From Roseobacter litoralis Och 149 (GTDB lineage Bacteria; Pseudomonadota; Alphaproteobacteria; Rhodobacterales; Rhodobacteraceae): a stretch of DNA of 64,000 nt. Position 1 is the stretch's first letter, and every line of letters starts with the position of its first letter. Position numbers and translations under genes: made by a program. The stretch covers positions 2,604,001 to 2,668,000 of the forward strand of contig NC_015730.1 of assembly GCF_000154785.2 (NCBI RefSeq). The letters run 5' to 3'. The notes beneath the pieces were generated by a model. That model searched no databases. It saw only the letters and a program-made list of their open reading frames with translations, and was not told the DNA's origin. Shown here in pieces: positions 15,263-59,479 of this stretch.

Positions 15263-17140
15263 ATGACCAAACCATCCGACAATCCCGCAGATGCCTTTAA
15301 AAAGGCACTGACCGAGGCGACGAAGGTCATGGCGGATGATCCTGAGCTGTCGGTCAGCTATTCGGTGGACCCGGCGGGCCTGTCCGGGGATGCGATGCGT
15401 CTGCCGCAGGTCAGTCGTCGTATGACGCGCGCCGAGGTTCTGTTGGCGCGCGGCACGGCGGATGCTCTGGCGCTGAACCGGCGCTATCATAATGGCGAAA
15501 CACACGCACGCTATGCGCCGCAGGGCGAAATGGCGCGCGAGTTGTACGAGGCGATGGAAACCGCCCGCTGCGAGGCTGTGGGCGCGCGCGACATGCCGGG
15601 CACAGCGGGCAATATTGACGCCAAGATCGCGCATGAAGCGATGCGAAAGGGCTATGATCAGGTCACGCAGGCGGCGGATGTGCCGCTGGCCACGGCGGCG
15701 GGGTATCTGATCCGTCACCTTGCGACGGGGCGCGATCTGCCTTCCGGGGCGCAAAACGTCATGGATCTGTGGCGCGGTTTCATCGAAGAGCAGGCGGGCG
15801 GTACGCTTGACGCATTGGATGAGACGTTGGCGGATCAGGCCGCGTTTGCCAAGTTTGCACGTCAGATGATCTCTGATCTTGGCTACGGTGACCAGCTTGG
15901 GGATGATCCCGATCAAATCGATGAGGATCAGGAAGACGACGCCGAAGATGGCAGCGAGGATCAGAACGAACCCGACAGCACCGGGCAGGATGATCAGGAC
16001 GAGGAAGACGCAGACGCCTCCCCCGAACAGAGCCAGGAAGATCAGCAAGATGCCGCGCAGGCACAGGTCTCCATGGATGACATGGCCGATCAGGAGATGG
16101 GCGACGAAGCGGAAATGCCCGAGGGCGAGGCCCCGCTTGAACCGCCCGCCCCGCAGCCGGTGTCGGATGCGGATCCGAACTACATGGTCTACCTCGGAGA
16201 TCATGACGAAGAGATCAACGCCGAAGACCTTGCCGAACCGGTTGAGCTGGAACGCCTGCGCGCCTATCTCGATCAGCAGCTTGAGCCGCTCAAAGGGGCC
16301 GTGAGCCGCCTTGCGAACAAACTGCAACGACGCCTTCAGGCGCAGCAGAACCGGTCATGGGAATTCGACCTCGAAGAGGGGATGTTGGATGCGGGCCGAT
16401 TGGCGCGCGTGGTGGCCAACCCGACCACGCCGCTCAGCTTCAAGGTCGAGAAAGACACCGAGTTTCGCGATACCGTGGTGACACTGCTGCTGGACAACTC
16501 CGGCTCCATGCGGGGGCGTCCCATTTCGATTGCAGCGATTTGTGCCGATGTGCTGGCGCGCACGCTGGAGCGCTGTAACGTCAAGGTGGAAATCCTCGGC
16601 TTTACCACCCGCGCGTGGAAAGGCGGACAGGCCCGTGAGGCTTGGCTGAACGATGGCCGCCCCCAACAGCCCGGCCGTCTGAACGACCTGCGCCACATCA
16701 TCTACAAATCAGCGGATGCGCCTTGGCGGCGGACCCGTCCCAATCTGGGCCTGATGATGAAAGAAGGGTTGCTCAAGGAGAACATCGACGGTGAAGCGCT
16801 TGAATGGGCGCACCGGCGTATGCTGATGCGGGCCGAGGCGCGCAAGATCCTCATGGTCATCTCGGATGGTGCGCCGGTGGATGACAGCACGCTGTCCGTG
16901 AACCCTGCGAACTATCTGGAAAAACACCTGCGCGACGTGATCGCCTTGGTCGAAAAGCGCAAAGCGGTTGAGCTTTTGGCCATCGGGATCGGTCACGATG
17001 TCACCCGCTATTATGAGCGGGCGGTCACCATTACCGATGTCGACCAGCTTGCCGGGGCGATGACTGAACAACTGGCGGCTCTGTTTGACAGTGATCCACG
17101 CGCACGCGCACGCGTCATGGGCATGCGCCGCGCAGGCTAA
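15263..17140 (+). CDS. cobT: Aerobic cobaltochelatase subunit CobT
   Basis: 625 residues. It forms the scaffold ring with CobS and binds the CobN subunit. The layout is a helical N-terminal region, a very acidic linker at about residues 210-300 (runs of Asp, Glu and Gln), and a C-terminal von Willebrand A-like domain with the metal-site motif [10 protein letters not shown] at about 408-417 and later ISDGAPVDD. This order is diagnostic of CobT. No cobN is present in the window. Confidence 0.96.
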
Positions 17141-36388: not shown

Positions 36389-37783
36389 TTAAAGGTACTT
36401 GGCGACCTCTTGGGTGAAATCGTCGCCACGTTGCTCAAAATTGTCATATTGATCAAAGCTCGCCGCCGCCGGTGCCAGCAGCACAACATCGCCCGCCTCG
36501 GCCTCGCGCGCCGCTTTTTCCACGGCCTGCGCCATCGTTGTGCAAATCTCGGCCTCAACCGGGAGCTTCATGGCAAAAGCCGCCGCTTCGCGACCGATGA
36601 CATAGGCTTTGACCACTGAAGCGCTCGCGTCGCGCAAGGCGTCCATCCCGCCATCTTTTTCCAGCCCGCCGCAGATCCAGCGGATGGATGGAAAGGCCGC
36701 CAGCGCCTTGGCGGCGGCATCGGCATTTGTCGCCTTGCTGTCGTTCACAAAGCGCACACCGTCTTTTTCGCCGACCAGCTGGCTGCGGTGCGGCAGCCCT
36801 TGAAACGAATGCAGCGCCGCCTCGATCACTTTGGGCGCAAGACCCAAGGACCGGCACACAGCATAAGCCGCGCAGGCATTCTGGTGATTATGAACGCCCG
36901 GCAGGCCCGGCACAGACCGCAGATCAATCGACGCGATCTGCTTGCCCTTGCGGTATTCAGACAAAAACCCTTTGCGCGCAAAAACCTGCCAACCGGGTCC
37001 GGTCAGCTTTTGCGCAACCGAAATGCGAATAACACGATCATCCGCGCGACCCTCCGCAAGCTGCCCCGCCAGAGACAGCCCTTCGTCCTCGTCAACCCCA
37101 ACGATCGCACGGTCCGGCCCGCCTTCGGCAAACAGCCGGCGCTTGGCCGCAAAGTACCCGCCCATACCCCCGTGCCGATCCAGATGATCTTCGGACAGGT
37201 TGGTAAACACCGCCACATCGGGCGTCAGACTGCGCGCAAGGTCCGTCTGATAACTGGACAGTTCCAGAACCACGACTTCGCCATCATGGGGCGGGTCAAT
37301 ATCAAGCACCCCGCGGCCTATGTTTCCAGCCAAGGTCGCCGGGCGGCCCACATGTTCCAGAATATGGTGGATCAGCGCGGATGTTGTCGATTTTCCGTTG
37401 GATCCGGTGACGGCCACAACGCGGGGGGCGATGTCAAAATTGGACCAATCCTCCGTCGCGAAGGACTGAAAGAACAGGCCGATGTCGTTGTCCACCGGCA
37501 CCCCTGCCTGCAACGCGAGACGAACAACAGGGTTCGGGGCGGGATAAAGATGCGGAATACCCGGGCTGACGATCAGCCGGGCGATGTCGTCAAAATCAGA
37601 CACCGAACGAAACGGTGTGCAGTCAAAGCCCTCGTTTTGCGCACGTGCGCGGGCGTCCGGGTTGTCGTCCCAGCACAACGCCAGCGCGCCCCCTTCTTTC
37701 AGGGCACGCGCGGCACTCATGCCTGTCCGACCAAGCCCCAGCACAGCGACTTTTGCGCCTCTCAGCCCCTGAACCGGGATCAC
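36389..37783 (-). CDS. murD: UDP-N-acetylmuramoylalanine--D-glutamate ligase
   Basis: 464 residues. Adds D-Glu to UDP-MurNAc-L-Ala. N-terminal [15 protein letters not shown] binds UDP; ATP loop [14 protein letters not shown]; central ELSSYQTDL and the carbamylated Lys region; [13 protein letters not shown] in the C-terminal domain. It starts [14 protein letters not shown]. About 55 bases separate it from mraY. Confidence 0.97.
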
Positions 37784-52852: not shown

Positions 52853-55800
52853 ATGCCTGAATTCAAAAAAATCCTCATTGCCAACCGGGGCGAAATCGCG
52901 ATCCGCATCATGCGCGCCGCAAACGAGATGGGCAAGAAAACCGTCGCCGTTTTTGCCGAAGAGGACAAACTGGGCCTGCATCGTTTCAAAGCGGACGAAG
53001 CCTACCGGATCGGCGAAGGCATGGGGCCGGTTGCCGCCTATCTCAGCATTGATGAGATCATTCGTGTCGCCAAGGAAGCGGGCGCGGATGCCATCCACCC
53101 CGGATATGGGCTGTTATCGGAAAACCCCGATTTTGTGGATGCCTGCGATCAAAACGGCATCGTCTTTATTGGACCGCGGGCCGAAACCATGCGTGCGCTT
53201 GGGGACAAGGCCTCTGCCCGTCGGGTGGCTGTTGAAGCAGGCGTGCCCGTGATCCCCGCCACCGAAGTGCTGGGCGATGACATGAAGGCGATCAAGGCCG
53301 AGGCGAAACAGGTTGGTTATCCGCTGATGCTCAAGGCGTCATGGGGCGGCGGGGGGCGCGGCATGCGTCCAATCCAGCAAGAGGACGAGCTGGAAGAAAA
53401 GGTCCTTGAGGGGCGGCGCGAGGCGGAGGCTGCCTTTGGCAATGGTGAGGGCTATCTGGAAAAGATGATCCTCAGGGCGCGCCACGTGGAGGTTCAGATT
53501 CTGGGCGACAAACATGGCGACATGTATCACCTGTTTGAACGGGATTGCTCGGTCCAGCGGCGCAACCAAAAGGTCGTTGAGCGCGCGCCTGCGCCATACC
53601 TGACGGAGGCGCAGCGTGCTGAAGTTTGCAAACTGGGCTATGATATCTGCAAACATGTGAATTACGAGTGCGCGGGCACGGTCGAATTCCTGATGGATAT
53701 GGATGACGGCAAATTTTACTTCATCGAGGTAAACCCGCGCGTACAGGTTGAACATACCGTCACCGAAGAGGTGACAGGCATCGACATCGTGCAGGCTCAG
53801 ATCCTGATCGCAGAGGGCAAAACCATTGCCGAGGCGACGGGCAAGCCGACACAAGCTGATGTCCAGCTGACGGGCCATGCGCTGCAAACCCGGATCACCA
53901 CCGAGGACCCGCAGAATAACTTCATCCCTGACTATGGCCGCATCACTGCCTTTCGCGAGGCAACGGGCATGGGCATCCGCCTTGATGGTGGTACTGCATA
54001 TTCCGGCGGCGTGATCACGCGCTATTACGACAGCCTGCTGGTCAAGGTCACCGCCAAGGCGCAAACACCGGACGCGGCCATCGCCCGGATGGACCGCGCC
54101 CTGCGCGAATTCCGTATTCGGGGCGTGTCCACCAATATCGCCTTTGTCGAGAACCTGCTCAAACACCCGACGTTTTTGAACAATGAATACCACACCAAAT
54201 TCATTGACGAGACGCCTGAGCTTTTCCAGTTCTCCAAACGGCGTGACCGCGGCACCAAAGTGCTGACCTATATCGCGGACATCACGGTGAACGGCCATCC
54301 CGAGACCAAAGCGCATCCGCGCCCGCCAGCCCATGTCAAAGACCCACGCGCCCCAAAGGAACGCGCAGAGCCTATGATGGGCACGCGCAACCTGCTTGAA
54401 CAAAAAGGTCCGCAAGGGGTTGCGGACTGGATGAAACAGCAACGCCAGCTCTTGATCACCGACACCACCATGCGCGACGGGCACCAGTCTCTGCTGGCCA
54501 CGCGGATGCGGTCCATTGATATGATCAAGGTGGCGCCGAGCTATTCGGCCAATCTGCCGCAACTCTTTTCGGTTGAATGCTGGGGGGGCGCGACGTTCGA
54601 TGTGGCCTATCGGTTCTTGCAGGAATGTCCATGGCAGCGCCTGCGCGATCTGCGTGCCGCGATGCCAAACCTGATGACCCAGATGCTGCTGCGCGCCTCA
54701 AACGGGGTGGGATATACCAACTATCCCGATAATGTTGTGCAAGAATTCGTGCGCGTTGCCGCCAGCACAGGGGTGGACGTTTTCCGCGTTTTCGACAGTC
54801 TCAACTGGGTTGAGAACATGCGCGTTGCGATGGATGCCGTGATTGAGAACGGCAAGGTTTGTGAAGGGTCCATCTGCTACACCGGCGACATCAATGACCC
54901 GGATCGGGCAAAGTATAACCTGAAATACTATGTGGACATGGGCAAGGAACTGCGAGACGCGGGGGCCCATGTTCTCGGCCTCAAGGATATGGCGGGCCTG
55001 CTCAAACCCGCCGCCGCGCGCCAGTTGGTCCGCACCCTGAAATCCGAAGTCGGCCTGCCCATTCACTTTCATACGCATGATACCGCCGGGGTTGCCTGTG
55101 CCACGATCCTTGCCGCGTCCGAGGCTGGTGTGGATGCCGTGGACTGCGCGATGGATGCGCTCTCGGGCAACACCTCACAAGCGACGCTGGGGTCTGTCGT
55201 TTCGGCGCTGAAACACACCGATCGCGACACCGGGCTGGATATGTCCGCGATTCGCGAAATCTCTGATTATTGGGAAGAGGTGCGCAATCACTACGCCGCC
55301 TTTGAAACAGGTATGCAGGCCCCCTCCTCCGAGGTTTATCTACATGAAATGCCCGGTGGTCAGTTCACGAACCTCAAGGCGCAGGCGGCAAGTCTGGGGC
55401 TTGCCGACCGCTGGCATGAGGTCGCACAGACCTACGCCGAGGTGAACCAGATGTTTGGCGATATCGTTAAGGTGACGCCATCCTCCAAGGTAGTGGGCGA
55501 CATGGCCCTGATGATGGTATCGCAAGGGCTAAGCCGCGCAGACGTGGAAAACCCGGATACGGATGTTTCCTTCCCGGACAGTGTTGTGGATATGATGCGC
55601 GGCAACCTCGGCCAACCGCCCGGCGGTTTTCCGGAAGCCATTGTCAAAAAGGTGCTCAAGGACGAGCAGCCCGTCCTTGACCGCCCCGGCAAACACCTGC
55701 CCCCCGCTGATCTGGAAGCCCTGCGCGCAGAGGCCTCCAATCTGATGGAAGGCAAGCTCGTTGATGATGAGGACCTGTCGGGATATCTGATGTATCCCAA

Positions 55801-56293
55801 GGTGTTCCTCGATTACATGGGCCGTCACCGGACCTATGGGCCGGTACGGGCACTGCCGACCAAGACGTTCTTTTACGGCATGGAACCGGGCGAAGAAATC
55901 AGCGCTGAAATCGACCCCGGCAAGACGCTTGAAATACGTCTGCAGACGGTCGGCGACACCGGCGAAGACGGTGAGGTTCGGGTATTCTTTGAACTCAACG
56001 GCCAACCCCGCGTGATCCGGGTGCCCAACCGCCTCGTGGCGGCGACAACCCAAAAACGCCCCAAAGCCGAGACTGGGAACGCCAAACACATTGGTGCGCC
56101 GATGCCGGGGGTTGTAGCGTCGGTTGCAGCCAAGGGAGGGGGCAAGGTCAAGGCGGGTGATCTGTTGCTCACAATCGAAGCCATGAAAATGGAAACGGGC
56201 ATCCACGCCGAAAAGGCGGCCACGGTCAAAACCGTACATGTCAGCCCCGGCGGGCAAATTGACGCCAAGGATCTGCTTATCGAATTTGAGTAA
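52853..56293 (+). CDS. pyc: Pyruvate carboxylase
   Basis: 1146 residues, complete. Makes oxaloacetate from pyruvate, an anaplerotic entry that many roseobacters use. N-terminal biotin carboxylase domain (ILIANRGEIAIRIMRAANE; ATP-grasp KASWGGGGRGMR), carboxyltransferase domain with TTMRDGHQSLLATRMR and FHTHDTAGVA, and C-terminal biotinyl domain with biotin Lys at about 1112 in EAMKME. A purine-rich AAGAGAG precedes the ATG. Confidence 0.98.
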   Translation: MPEFKKILIANRGEIAIRIMRAANEMGKKTVAVFAEEDKLGLHRFKADEAYRIGEGMGPVAAYLSIDEIIRVAKEAGADAIHPGYGLLSENPDFVDACDQNGIVFIGPRAETMRALGDKASARRVAVEAGVPVIPATEVLGDDMKAIKAEAKQVGYPLMLKASWGGGGRGMRPIQQEDELEEKVLEGRREAEAAFGNGEGYLEKMILRARHVEVQILGDKHGDMYHLFERDCSVQRRNQKVVERAPAPYLTEAQRAEVCKLGYDICKHVNYECAGTVEFLMDMDDGKFYFIEVNPRVQVEHTVTEEVTGIDIVQAQILIAEGKTIAEATGKPTQADVQLTGHALQTRITTEDPQNNFIPDYGRITAFREATGMGIRLDGGTAYSGGVITRYYDSLLVKVTAKAQTPDAAIARMDRALREFRIRGVSTNIAFVENLLKHPTFLNNEYHTKFIDETPELFQFSKRRDRGTKVLTYIADITVNGHPETKAHPRPPAHVKDPRAPKERAEPMMGTRNLLEQKGPQGVADWMKQQRQLLITDTTMRDGHQSLLATRMRSIDMIKVAPSYSANLPQLFSVECWGGATFDVAYRFLQECPWQRLRDLRAAMPNLMTQMLLRASNGVGYTNYPDNVVQEFVRVAASTGVDVFRVFDSLNWVENMRVAMDAVIENGKVCEGSICYTGDINDPDRAKYNLKYYVDMGKELRDAGAHVLGLKDMAGLLKPAAARQLVRTLKSEVGLPIHFHTHDTAGVACATILAASEAGVDAVDCAMDALSGNTSQATLGSVVSALKHTDRDTGLDMSAIREISDYWEEVRNHYAAFETGMQAPSSEVYLHEMPGGQFTNLKAQAASLGLADRWHEVAQTYAEVNQMFGDIVKVTPSSKVVGDMALMMVSQGLSRADVENPDTDVSFPDSVVDMMRGNLGQPPGGFPEAIVKKVLKDEQPVLDRPGKHLPPADLEALRAEASNLMEGKLVDDEDLSGYLMYPKVFLDYMGRHRTYGPVRALPTKTFFYGMEPGEEISAEIDPGKTLEIRLQTVGDTGEDGEVRVFFELNGQPRVIRVPNRLVAATTQKRPKAETGNAKHIGAPMPGVVASVAAKGGGKVKAGDLLLTIEAMKMETGIHAEKAATVKTVHVSPGGQIDAKDLLIEFE

Positions 56294-56358: not shown

Positions 56359-56376
56359 TGTCAACTTTTGTTGACA
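56359..56376. promoter_or_regulatory. PpsR/CrtJ-type operator palindrome
   Basis: TGTCAACTTTTGTTGACA is a perfect inverted repeat and fits TGT-N12-ACA (more exactly TGTC-N10-GACA), the binding pattern of PpsR/CrtJ, the redox and light repressor of photosynthesis genes. Its right arm is the -35 TTGACA of the promoter below, the classic repressor layout. It lies 85 bases upstream of the B12-binding regulator. Confidence 0.7.
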
Positions 56377-56400
56377 CAGCTCATCGGTAGTCTGTACGCT
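56371..56400 (+). promoter_or_regulatory. Candidate promoter of the B12-binding regulator
   Basis: TTGACA at 56371-56376 is a consensus -35; TACGCT at 56395-56400 is a weak -10 after an 18-base spacer. It overlaps the palindrome above, so occupancy there would block polymerase. Confidence 0.5.
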
Positions 56401-56461
56401 ATGGCCAAGGCACACGATGATTGTCGAAGGATGCATTGAACTACGGCCTTGGGGGGACTAA

Positions 56462-57295
56462 ATGTCGGATCAGAATTCCCCGCGCGCGGCGAGAGATGAG
56501 GATCGGTATCGCCAGGTTCAGACGGATGTTTTGCAGCTCAAGGCGCGTCTTCCCGAGGCTGATGTCGGTGATATCGTTTCAGAAGTATTGAACCGCGTTA
56601 CTGCGCTCAGAAAAGTAAACGGCGACAGAGTCAACCTGCCAACGCGGGAAAAAGTTGAAAAACTCTGCTATGCGCTGATTTCAGACGACATGAATGAAGG
56701 TGCCGCGTTCATTCATGATGTGCAGGAAGAAGGCGCGACCCTCGAAGCAGTCTATCTGAACTATCTCGCCGAAGCCGCCGGAGTTCTGGGCGAGTGGTGG
56801 GATGATGATCACGTCACTTTTCTTGAGGTCACGATTGGCAGCAGTCGGATCTACGCAATCATGCGCGACCTTGGCTATCTGTTTGTGCCCGATCGCCTTG
56901 TTGAGGTGAAATCAGCAATCTTCGCAACTACCCCGAACGAAACGCATGTTCTTGGCGTACAGATGGCGGCGGACCTTTTTGGCACCGAAGGCTGGAATAT
57001 CGACGTCATGACTGGCCTGTCCCATGAAGCGCTTGTCCAACAGATCACGCAAAGCCCCTATCACATTCTGGGCCTGTCTGCAGGTGGCGCACATTCTGCC
57101 GGTGCATTGGCACGGTTGATTGTCGCTGTACGACTGGCCCGACCTGATATGCGGATTTTCCTAAGCGGACAGATTGTGCAAGCTTGCCCCGACCTTGTTA
57201 CCGTCATGGACCTTGACGGTGCTGCCGATGATATCGAAGACGCCAAGCGTATTCTGCAAGAGCTTTGGTCGGAGTCGTGCGCACAACCGTCCTGA
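56462..57295 (+). CDS. B12-binding regulator, AerR/PpaA-like
   Basis: 277 residues, soluble. After a helical N-terminal part (about 20-100) comes a four-helix cap with LGEWWDDDHVTFLEVTIG at 109-126, the Trp-Asp pattern of light- and B12-sensing proteins of the AerR/PpaA type. The Rossmann cobalamin domain follows: NETHVLGVQMAADLF with the lower-ligand His at 162 and Gly at 165, then ILGLSAGGA and FLSGQ. AerR/PpaA in Rhodobacter acts as antirepressor of CrtJ/PpsR. A PpsR-type operator lies upstream. No DNA-binding domain is visible. It could also be a corrinoid protein of another pathway, but no methyltransferase gene is near. Confidence 0.78.
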   Translation: MSDQNSPRAARDEDRYRQVQTDVLQLKARLPEADVGDIVSEVLNRVTALRKVNGDRVNLPTREKVEKLCYALISDDMNEGAAFIHDVQEEGATLEAVYLNYLAEAAGVLGEWWDDDHVTFLEVTIGSSRIYAIMRDLGYLFVPDRLVEVKSAIFATTPNETHVLGVQMAADLFGTEGWNIDVMTGLSHEALVQQITQSPYHILGLSAGGAHSAGALARLIVAVRLARPDMRIFLSGQIVQACPDLVTVMDLDGAADDIEDAKRILQELWSESCAQPS

Positions 57296-57400: not shown

Positions 57401-57475
57401 GCGGGCGTAGCTCAGGGGTAGAGCATAACCTTGCCAAGGTTAGGGTCGGGCGTTCGAATCGCCTCGCCCGCTCCA
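57401..57475 (+). tRNA. tRNA-Gly (anticodon GCC)
   Basis: 75 bases with encoded CCA. The acceptor stem GCGGGCG pairs with CGCCCGC; D arm GCTC-AGGGGTA-GAGC; anticodon loop TTGCCAA gives GCC; T loop TTCGAAT. A complete cloverleaf. A strong terminator follows, then insertion-sequence debris, so its 3' side is an insertion hot spot. Confidence 0.97.
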
Positions 57476-57478
57476 AAA

Positions 57479-57536
57479 TTACCAAAGCCTTACAGTTGTT
57501 TAGCTTAAAACACCTGTAAGGCTGGTAAATTTTTTA
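57479..57536 (+). terminator. Rho-independent terminator of tRNA-Gly
   Basis: AGCCTTACAG (57486-57495) pairs with CTGTAAGGCT (57514-57523), extended by TTACCA and TGGTAA outside, followed by TTTTTT. The 18-base loop is long, but the stem is near perfect. Confidence 0.85.
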
Positions 57537-57585
57537 CTTCATGCGAACGTTTGACCGGCCCCACTTGAGTGGTGCAATTTGAAAG

Positions 57586-57882
57586 TTAGTGCATGATTGG
57601 CCTTTGGTCCATCGGAACGATGGCTTCTGGCGAGGGTGGGCGGTAGCCCAATGCACTGTGCGGTCTCTTTGTGTTGTAGTGTTCCCTCCATTCTTCAATG
57701 ATGATTGGTGCTTCTCTGAGCGAGTAGAAAATTTCGCCGTTGAGGAGTTCATCCCTGAAGCGACCATTAAAGCTTTCACAATACCCGTTCTCCCAAAGTG
57801 ATCCTGGCTTGATGTAGGCAGTCTTGGCACCGACAGCGGCAATCCAATCCCGAACGGTCTGAGCAACGAACTCAGGGCCATA
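57586..57882 (-). pseudogene. IS3-family transposase C-terminal remnant
   Basis: The last 100 codons of an OrfB integrase: YGPEFVAQTVRDW (remnant of DNGPEF with the second catalytic Asp changed), ENGYCESFNGRFRDELLNG with the catalytic Glu, HYNTKRPHSALGYRPP, then stop. Homology ends at the GPEF motif, and the upstream sequence belongs to an IS110 element on the other strand, so the 5' part was lost at that junction. Non-functional. Confidence 0.88.
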
Positions 57883-58016
57883 ACACCTTCGGAATAACGC
57901 TGATTGAGAGGCTGTGATTGCCTGCGCAGCCATCAAATAGCGCAGCAGGTGGTCATAGCCGGGTCTCAGGTCCCTACAGTGGTTTTGCACAAACCACACC
58001 GCAAAGGAGACCGACT

Positions 58017-58286
58017 ATGACCGAGATGACTATTGCACAAGATACACCTGTTTTGGTTGCCATCGACATTGCCAAAGCGCGGCATGAAGTTTTGATTGCT
58101 GTTCCAGATAAGAAACGCCGACGCCGTTTAACCGTCTTGAACAGCCTTGCCGACTTTAACCGCCTCGTCACCGCGTTGAAGGAATACGGACGTCCAGTTC
58201 GTGTAGCCTTTGAGGCGACCGGTAATTATTACCGGGTCTTGGCGTACCATCTGGCAACCGCAGGCTTTGGAGCTGTCCCGCTTTAG
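58017..58286 (+). pseudogene. IS110-family transposase N-terminal fragment
   Basis: 89 residues from MTEMTIAQDTPVLVAIDIAK, with AAAGGAGA upstream. The DEDD motif begins with AIDIAKARHEVL (first Asp) and FEATGNYYRVL (Glu). It is cut at 58286 by the IS3 element that begins at 58287; no continuation is found after 59523, so the rest was deleted or lies elsewhere. Confidence 0.88.
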
Positions 58287-58305
58287 TGCCGCCCCTAGTG
58301 CTCGT

Positions 58306-59207
58306 TTAAGCCACCTTCCGTTCGAATGCGACAGGGCTTTTCCATCCCAGTGCTGAGTGACGGCGGCGTGGACTGTAGAAGCCGTTGATGTATTCAAAGA
58401 TTGCCATCTCAGCGTGCCGCCTGGTTTCCCATGACCGCCGCCAGATCAGCTCGGCCTTGATGGTTTTGAAGAACGTCTCGACAGCCGCATTGTCGTAGCA
58501 ATTGCCCTTCCCAGGCATCGACACCTTGAACCCATGTTGGCGCAGAATCTTTTGATAGTCGTGAGAACAATATTGGCTACCGCGATCCGTGTGATGGATG
58601 CAGCCCTTTGGTGGCGCACGGAATACGATGGCCATGTTCAACGCCCGTATCGCTAGATCACGCTTCATGCGGTTACTGACGGCCCAGCCGATGACACGGC
58701 GAGAATGCAGGTCCAAGATCACAGCCAGATACACCCAGCCTTCACGGGTCCAGACATAGCTGATGTCGCCCGCCCATTTCTGGTTTGGCGCATCTGCCGC
58801 GCAGTCACGATCCAGTAGGTTCGGTGCTATATTGAACTTATGATCTCTATCCGTCGTGACCTTGTGTTTGCGTGTTCTGACCACTGATATGCCGTTCTGG
58901 CGCATCCACTGCCCGACAGGCGATTTGGCAAAGCCAAATCTGCCGAGAGGGGGCGGCCAACACGGCGGTGACCGATATCCAGGCCAATCTCTTTCAACTC
59001 CTCAGTCATGCGCGGCCTGCCATAGCTGCCAAGGCTCAGACGAGATTGTTCTTTGATGTGCGCCAGCGTGACCAAATCAGACCGCTGTCTGCGACTGGCT
59101 GGCCGGCTTCGAAATGCGCGTAGCCCGCGTGTGCTGACGCCAACGACATCACACAGCCGATTGGTGGGGAAGCTCTCGCTGTGTTCTTCAATGAACCTAA
59201 ATCTCAT
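58306..59207 (-). pseudogene. IS3 OrfB (DDE integrase), frameshifted
   Basis: The 5' part (59207 to about 58950: MRFRFIEEHSESFPTNRLCD) and the 3' part (about 58905 to 58306: MRQNGISVVRTRKHKVT) are in different frames. A net gain of about 44 bases with a palindrome separates them. Catalytic D (WAGDISYVW), D (HHTDRGSQY) and E (NAAVETFFKTIK) are all intact in the 3' part. The insertion makes the gene dead unless the frame is restored. Confidence 0.88.
58922..58940. repeat. Palindrome inside the broken orfB
   Basis: GATTTGGC-AAA-GCCAAATC, perfect 8-bp arms. With one bulged base the arms extend to GGC(A)GATTTGGC. It sits in a roughly 44-base segment (about 58906-58950) that is extra relative to the expected continuous VGRLMRQNG reading. 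It may be a small mobile palindromic repeat or a remnant of another element. Confidence 0.6.
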
Positions 59208-59479
59208 TGCTTTAGGCCCGCGAAGAACTGGGTGGCCTTTTTTAAGATCTCCCTCTCCTCCTTGAGAATACGGTTCTCGCGGCGCAGCCGGTCATTCTCT
59301 TGAACGAGGCTCATATCCTCTTTTGACACCACATCCGTGTCTCGATGCGCTGTGATCCACTTGTTCAGTGTGGACATACCTACACCCAGATCGTCAGCCA
59401 CCTGTTTGCGTGTCAGCCCACTGGTCAGCGCGATACGCACCGCATCTTGGCGAAATTCGTCCGTCCGTTTCAGTCCCAT
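59204..59479 (-). CDS. IS3-family OrfA (helix-turn-helix protein)
   Basis: 91 residues. Helix-turn-helix (FRQDAVRIALTSGLTRKQVA, LGVGMSTLNKWI) followed by a leucine-zipper-like stretch (ENDRLRRENRILKEEREIL). It normally binds the element ends and is joined to OrfB by -1 frameshifting. It overlaps orfB by 4 bases. Intact itself, although its partner is broken. Confidence 0.92.
   Translation of the reverse strand: MGLKRTDEFRQDAVRIALTSGLTRKQVADDLGVGMSTLNKWITAHRDTDVVSKEDMSLVQENDRLRRENRILKEEREILKKATQFFAGLKQ

Follow-up and report, generated by a model that had tools for sequence, protein, structure and literature searches.

A chromosomal AerR/PpaA paralogue behind a PpsR-type operator in Roseobacter litoralis, a probable second cobalamin-binding co-regulator of PpsR

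The photosynthesis genes of Roseobacter litoralis Och 149 are located on a plasmid, and B12 biosynthesis genes are also present in this organism (PMC3141670). In a stretch of 64,000 nucleotides of its chromosome (NC_015730.1, positions 2,604,001 to 2,668,000; hereafter the window), a gene for a B12-binding-type protein of 277 residues (gene X) is preceded by a palindrome of the PpsR type, which raises the question of whether a chromosomal gene and a plasmid-borne repressor belong to one circuit, and what the product of this gene does there. Here, we suggest that X is probably a second cobalamin-binding co-regulator of PpsR, namely a paralogue of AerR/PpaA with signature residues of its own, and that its gene, on the chromosome, is part of the PpsR regulon.

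The consensus site of PpsR at photosynthesis promoters is a TGT-N12-ACA palindrome (PMC10890935). An earlier note on this DNA, made from the sequence alone, had reported a perfect TGTC-N10-GACA palindrome that overlaps a TTGACA hexamer and ends 85 bases before the start codon of the gene. The palindrome was found as described (TGTCAACTTTTGTTGACA, Table 1), and since its arms (TGTCAAC and GTTGACA) are 7 bp long and flank TTTT, the operator is stronger than the form given in that note. By itself, TGTC-N10-GACA is ordinary, with 2 occurrences in the window (0.90 expected) and 90 in the genome versus 56 for a reversed control. We scored the window with a PpsR matrix derived from 12 sites of Rhodobacter sphaeroides found by chromatin immunoprecipitation sequencing (ChIP-seq; PMC4344238, Table 2, rows 12 and 14-19 omitted). 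The operator of X reached 22.5 bits, compared with 9.1 bits for the runner-up and 9.0-21.6 bits for the leave-one-out scores of the matrix's own 12 sites, and none of 40 Markov-simulated 64-kb sequences attained this score. It is thus far above chance. The other TGTC-N10-GACA of the window, at 37585-37602, scored 8.7 bits and is probably a chance occurrence.

Replicons of 4,505,211, 93,578, 83,129 and 63,532 bases have been described for this strain (PMC3141670), and the assembly analyzed here consists of four contigs with 4,745,450 bases, the window and X being on the chromosome (C3). The ppsR and ppaA genes and the photosynthesis cluster, which the earlier note had proposed to look for, all lie on the 93.6-kb plasmid (C4): ppsR was recognized on the 93,578-base replicon (TIGR02040, 400.4 bits, cut-off 275.4) in the neighborhood of a gene for a PpaA-type protein, bchF, bchN and bchG. 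X and ppsR are therefore not adjacent in R. litoralis. The exact sequence TGTCAA-N6-TTGACA occurs only four times in the whole 4.75-Mb genome, that is, in front of X, 42 bases upstream of the bchE start on the chromosome, upstream of bchC, and between ppaA and bchF (the latter two on the plasmid). Based on these sister sites and on the matrix score, the operator of X is of the PpsR type, as the earlier note had proposed, and binding of PpsR is predicted.

With one mismatch allowed, 12 places were found genome-wide. Two are upstream of crtI, and one (L066 1501-1518, C3:2675452) lies 116 bases upstream of a pucB-like light-harvesting complex gene with a PUCC gene downstream. Five are inside open frames (L063, L064, L068, L069 and L070, the last within hemC), and the remaining four (L065, L067, L071 and L072), near which no photosynthesis gene was recognized by eye, are probably due to chance. 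The place at C3:3550875 was considered as a hemE/hemC promoter site and rejected, as a Pfam match shows that the hemC frame contains it, at a distance of 338 bases from the start of hemE. Two mismatches gave 168 places versus 104 with the reversed control, implying that the weak matches are mostly chance. The chromosomal puc operon is 15 kb from X and approximately 7.5 kb past the end of the window; the earlier note had seen no photosynthesis gene in the window, and this operon lies just outside. It was also observed that bchE (L002) sits on the chromosome apart from the plasmid cluster, behind its exact PpsR-type site; a frame beside it (C3 ~3078209) presumably encodes a HemN-like protein.

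The operator was kept in all five close Roseobacter-type relatives examined (L077-L081), at -99 to -104; the loss in close orthologues that would have spoken against the reading of the earlier note was not observed. Four of them have intact six-base arms or better, and the left arm of L081 reads TGTAAA. In the alignment of the six sequences, both arms and the -10-like box are invariant or nearly so and the sequence 5' of the operator drifts; the 18-base spacing between TTGACA and a TAnnCT box was also kept in the five relatives. For a broader set of orthologues, the 250 bases upstream were scanned at a threshold of at least 8 bits with a matrix from eight sites of the R. litoralis genome, the operator of X being excluded. 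A PpsR-type site was detected in 39 of 79 promoters (L126 was omitted because of too little upstream sequence), whereas about 1.3 would be expected at 0.017 per promoter, a rate measured over the remainder of these loci, including their coding sequence. When only one locus per 80%-identity cluster was counted, the site was present in 32 of 64 promoters. A second set of the 29 best-scoring loci of the family, which excluded R. litoralis itself and whose organisms partly overlap the first set, gave 13 sites. Within the first set, the site was found in 2 of 24 loci with a photosynthesis gene within 10 kb versus 37 of 55 without one (Fisher p 1e-6). A trade-off in which a nearby photosynthesis gene replaces the site was considered and not retained: it is a pattern only, and not significant after correction for kinship (5 independent pairs).

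The genomic distribution of X also points to PpsR. In 295 genomes of the family, an X match at E<=1e-20 (an E-value cut by which X and PpaA are not separated as in a tree) was found in 57, of which 55 have PpsR, against 123 of 295 overall (Fisher p 1.3e-22, uncorrected for kinship). Together with the operator, this bears out the earlier suggestion that the gene is linked to phototrophy. In Sulfitobacter guttiformis, S. alexandrii and Sulfitobacter sp. S190, X is carried on a photosynthesis plasmid, where its neighbors are chlG and a gene for a c-type cytochrome; its annotation there is hypothetical or cobalamin-binding/-dependent. No methyltransferase gene is annotated next to X in the four plasmid stretches read. 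Two PpsR matches each were observed in genomes G240 and G068; in G240, an internal TAG interrupts one PpsR copy, and the X match beside the other ppsR copy contains an internal TAA.

At the protein level, residues 152-254 of X match the B12-binding domain PF02310 (39.9 bits, cut-off 32.1), and the cap domain PF02607 remained below its cut-off (15.8 vs 23). X carries LGEWWDDDHVTF and the motif E160-x-H162-x-x-G165, in agreement with the cobalamin domain and His162 noted earlier. Among 69 aligned X sequences, H162, G165, G236 and W113 are present in all, E160 in 64 (Asp in the other 5) and F120 in 56. From these residues, X would be expected to bind cobalamin via His162. The predicted model (predicted local distance difference test score 87, predicted template modelling score 0.86) consists of a four-helix cap and a Rossmann domain, together with two additional helices at the N-terminus. 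The fold comparison is dominated by the B12 domain and fails to separate the B12 families from one another; no CarH was seen among the 50 matches listed, which excludes nothing. X showed neither a BLUF match nor a DNA-binding domain match in Pfam up to E 1. Two residues are specific to X, as Asp171 and Trp178 occur in 69 of 69 X rows and each in at most one of 26 PpaA rows. Moreover, position 131, which corresponds to Gln112 of AerR, is Tyr or Phe in 65 of the 69 rows (Tyr131 in R. litoralis), whereas Gln is found there in all 26 PpaA rows, AerR and AppA.

When a profile of 18 relatives was compared with solved structures, AerR ranked first (5.4e-19), followed by AppA (1.9e-10), the photocobilins, which are photoreceptors that bind cobalamin (5e-8), and corrinoid proteins (1.6e-7). 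A quick tree was built from 98 rows, including 69 X (13 near-duplicates thinned), 26 PpaA-type, AerR, AppA and one corrinoid protein as root. The five groups needed the minimum of 4 changes, AerR fell within PpaA, and one X row (L131) took a basal position on the PpaA side (support not starred). Without two long rows and ten further X rows, X and PpaA plus AerR formed the two sides of one branch, with a Shimodaira-Hasegawa-like approximate likelihood ratio test (SH-aLRT) value of 88 (unstarred, quick tree). Forcing AerR together with X apart from PpaA was rejected by the approximately unbiased (AU) test with p 0.003, a nominal value, as the group was named after the tree had been seen. By these comparisons, X is a separate paralogous branch and not an orthologue of AerR/PpaA. 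For the long row L094_PpaA, whose locus holds no ppsR, the PpaA name is doubtful.

Comparison with known systems places X closest to AerR/PpaA of R. capsulatus, R. sphaeroides and Dinoroseobacter shibae. Like X, these proteins combine a four-helix cap with a B12 Rossmann domain and share the E-x-H-x-x-G motif, the cap Trp and Phe and a conserved Gly (AerR residues from PMC9144470 and PMC6199135). They share with the X family a genomic link to ppsR, although X and ppsR are close to each other in only part of the loci (20 of 80, R. litoralis not included), and ppaA of R. sphaeroides also lies behind a PpsR-type site according to ChIP-seq (PMC4344238). In contrast, X forms the separate branch with its own Asp, Trp and Tyr/Phe positions described above, and its gene is chromosomal in R. 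litoralis, where ppsR and ppaA are on the plasmid. As for His10 of LAerR, R. litoralis X has no His before residue 85, and 48 of the 69 X rows have one in the first 60 residues. Thus, the earlier designation as an AerR/PpaA-like regulator holds for relatedness and for the B12 residues, but the protein is a paralogue in a genome that has its own PpaA beside ppsR.

The SCHIC domain of R. sphaeroides AppA, a second PpsR partner besides PpaA (PMC10890935), is the second-best solved relative of X. X differs from AppA in lacking a BLUF match and in having the B12 His in register, as the heme His of AppA is shifted by two residues (PMC9144470). As to the search for appA suggested in the earlier note, the sole BLUF match of the genome is in a frame of 162 residues (L157, C3:3116558-3116830), which is too short for AppA (406-residue constructs). 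LdaP, a LOV antirepressor of PpsR in D. shibae, shows that a roseobacter can have an additional partner for PpsR (PMC10890935), although it belongs to another protein class and uses flavin mononucleotide rather than B12. In the photoreceptors CarH and LitR, a B12 module resembling that of AerR, including the cap Trp (PMC9144470), is fused to a MerR DNA-binding domain for which X has no match. At the columns of what we take to be the Glu141-His142 motif of CarH, X reads Val-Thr, as does AerR. With X of Cereibacter changlensis as query, no R. sphaeroides protein appeared by name among the best 120 of 267 matches, most of which are nameless. RSP_3000 of R. sphaeroides, which is PpsR-bound and of unknown function, was considered as a possible counterpart of X.

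Several other explanations were weighed. The one that survives best, although we regard it as unlikely, is that X is indeed under PpsR control but exerts its effect, as a B12 or light sensor, on a partner other than PpsR, for example by balancing cobalamin against bacteriochlorophyll synthesis. The operator evidence is independent of the partner of X; BchE, whose gene has the same exact operator form, itself carries a B12-binding domain; and at the position of the proposed Gln contact, X has a residue unlike that of every PpaA, AerR and AppA in the comparison. In addition, X on a plasmid of strain SC52 (L163, CP049031.1, 60621-61472) adjoins genes for a pyrroloquinoline quinone-dependent methanol/ethanol dehydrogenase and a 4Fe-4S protein, and no photosynthesis gene is annotated in the 14.8 kb around it. 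However, ppsR is within 10 kb of X in 20 of 80 orthologue loci, being in 14 of them the first matched gene after X and convergent with it (elsewhere within 10 kb in the other 6), and Thr124 in helix 4, the equivalent of a proposed AerR contact, is kept in 56 of the 69 X rows.

It is highly improbable that the palindrome serves another regulator or is a -35 box that is palindromic by chance. The right arm does coincide with the consensus -35 hexamer, and the short form of the palindrome is common; nevertheless, both arms are preserved in close relatives (with the one mismatch of L081) while the preceding sequence drifts, the remaining three exact sites are at photosynthesis genes, and the ChIP-seq matrix score exceeds that of the runner-up in the window by 13 bits. 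Still less credible is an assignment of X to the corrinoid proteins of methyltransferase systems, even though several sources name relatives of X 'methanogenic corrinoid protein MtbC1', given that AerR ranked first by profile, that the AerR cap Trp occurs in all 69 rows (Phe takes its place in the MetH-like corrinoid protein from the same genome) and that X is associated with PpsR across genomes. The earlier note had named a placement with methyltransferase corrinoid proteins as an outcome against its reading, and AerR and AppA are nearer by profile; the tree, being rooted on a corrinoid protein, does not bear on this placement. Least probable of all is an AerR/PpaA orthologue relocated to the chromosome, which would share the domain layout and B12 residues of X, as a PpaA is already encoded beside ppsR in this genome, X and a PpaA-type frame occur near the same ppsR in 18 of 80 loci (18 of the 20 with ppsR), and X stands opposite PpaA plus AerR (SH-aLRT 88), the AerR-with-X grouping being rejected at the nominal AU p value.

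The reading of X as a PpsR co-regulator in the PpsR regulon also has several observations weighing against it. The CrtJ contacts proposed for AerR are Thr105, Ser109 and Gln112 (PMC9144470). Of these, Thr is found in 56 and Ser in 22 of the 69 X rows, and Gln is replaced in 65; the contact between X and PpsR may thus differ from that of AerR or be absent. In favor of a contact, the six residues of the Q-linker that have been proposed to form the docking face for AerR (PMC9144470) are all retained in the PpsR of R. litoralis. PpsR sites can be idle, judging from RSP_2095 and RSP_3000 of R. sphaeroides, which are PpsR-bound and unchanged in a ppsR mutant (PMC4344238). At the 8-bit cut-off, no site was found in 40 of the 79 orthologue loci, of which 22 have a photosynthesis gene within 10 kb and 18 do not. 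Co-occurrence based on an E-value cut cannot separate PpsR from phototrophy at large; 68 of the 123 PpsR genomes lack an X match at that cut, and one genome that is 100% complete (G006) has an X match (E 4e-28) and no PpsR, nor any TGT-N12-ACA in the 4 kb examined. The second X genome without PpsR (G021) is 79% complete and has kept the operator.

The features of the locus are listed in Table 1. The frame upstream of X (52853..56293) is one that we take to encode pyruvate carboxylase. After X and tRNA-Gly, frames at 57534-59479, some of them truncated, presumably represent insertion-sequence transposases, and frames with the same beginnings recur in L065. The cobT gene, which the earlier note had recognized in the window, is located at 15290-17092.

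Table 1. Features at and around gene X, with positions in the window.
Feature	Position	Strand	Basis or remark
Upstream neighbor	52853..56293	+	A frame with a 91-92% match also precedes X in L077-L080; probably not a component of the system
PpsR-type operator, TGTCAAC-TTTT-GTTGACA (TGT-N12-ACA)	56359..56376	+	Sequence, genome count, alignment, matrix score
TTGACA, -35-like hexamer within the operator right arm	56371..56376	+	Invariant in 6/6 aligned Roseobacter promoters
TACGCT, -10-like box, 18 bases past TTGACA	56395..56400	+	Consensus match, not a mapped start; TA and CT unchanged in all 6 aligned sequences
GGGGGG, possible ribosome-binding site, 5 bases 5' of ATG	56451..56456	+	Inspection only
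Gene X, 277-aa B12-binding-type protein, AerR/PpaA-related paralogue (ATG at 56462)	56462..57295	+	Pfam, profile, tree, residues
Four-helix cap, residues 62-138, W113, F120, T124	56645..56875	+	Alignment, predicted model
B12-binding Rossmann domain, residues 152-254, E160-x-H162-x-x-G165, G236	56915..57223	+	Pfam, alignment, model
tRNA-Gly(gcc)	57401..57475	+	Downstream neighbor only; within ~2 kb downstream of X in L077-L080

For the favored role of X as a PpsR co-regulator, the following mechanism can be proposed. PpsR made from the photosynthesis plasmid would bind the palindrome with its embedded -35 hexamer and block RNA polymerase. Upon relief of PpsR, X would be made along with bchE, bchC, bchF/ppaA, crtI and puc, as their common sites suggest. 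The protein would then bind cobalamin via His162 under a Trp113/Phe120 cap, might meet PpsR through the fourth cap helix by analogy with AerR and AppA, and may tune PpsR according to the B12 form or light. If PpsR controls X in this way, a feedback loop across two replicons would be closed. The same promoter layout is known from bchF of D. shibae, where one TGT-N12-ACA lies over a predicted -35 box and alteration of two bchF motifs relieved repression (PMC10890935). PpaA of D. shibae needs cobalamin to meet PpsR (PMC10890935), and AerR isoforms act in either direction on CrtJ (PMC9144470, PMC6199135); by analogy with PpaA, antirepression is favored over co-repression for X.

A more far-reaching proposal, to which we give slightly less than even weight, is that X founds a second B12-sensor family for PpsR in Rhodobacterales beside PpaA. 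It would dock differently (Tyr/Phe for Gln), so that both proteins compete or add up on one repressor and PpsR sets the dose of X, which gives a light/B12 loop tying the plasmid cluster to the chromosome. In our literature searches, we found no published account of a second AerR/PpaA-like family in Rhodobacterales, and the PpaA/AerR family papers of 2010 and 2015 may contain a prior mention; the main text of the genome paper, as far as it was available to us, names neither ppsR nor ppaA (PMC3141670).

Taken together, X represents a distinct paralogous family, which probably works like AerR/PpaA and is predicted to be wired to PpsR across replicons. Relatives of X are named hypothetical, cobalamin-binding or methanogenic corrinoid protein in the sources, and current models of photosynthesis control in aerobic phototrophs involve PpsR, PpaA and a LOV or BLUF protein. 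The X family is found with ppsR in approximately 50 genera of our sample; if X is a PpsR partner, current models would be short of one component. Given the PpsR docking site predicted at the X promoter, the repressor probably acts on the gene of one of its putative partners on another DNA molecule. This site suggests how a plasmid-borne repressor may reach chromosomal genes (X, bchE and puc), and it bears on the question of how control over photosynthesis clusters is maintained as they pass from one replicon to another.
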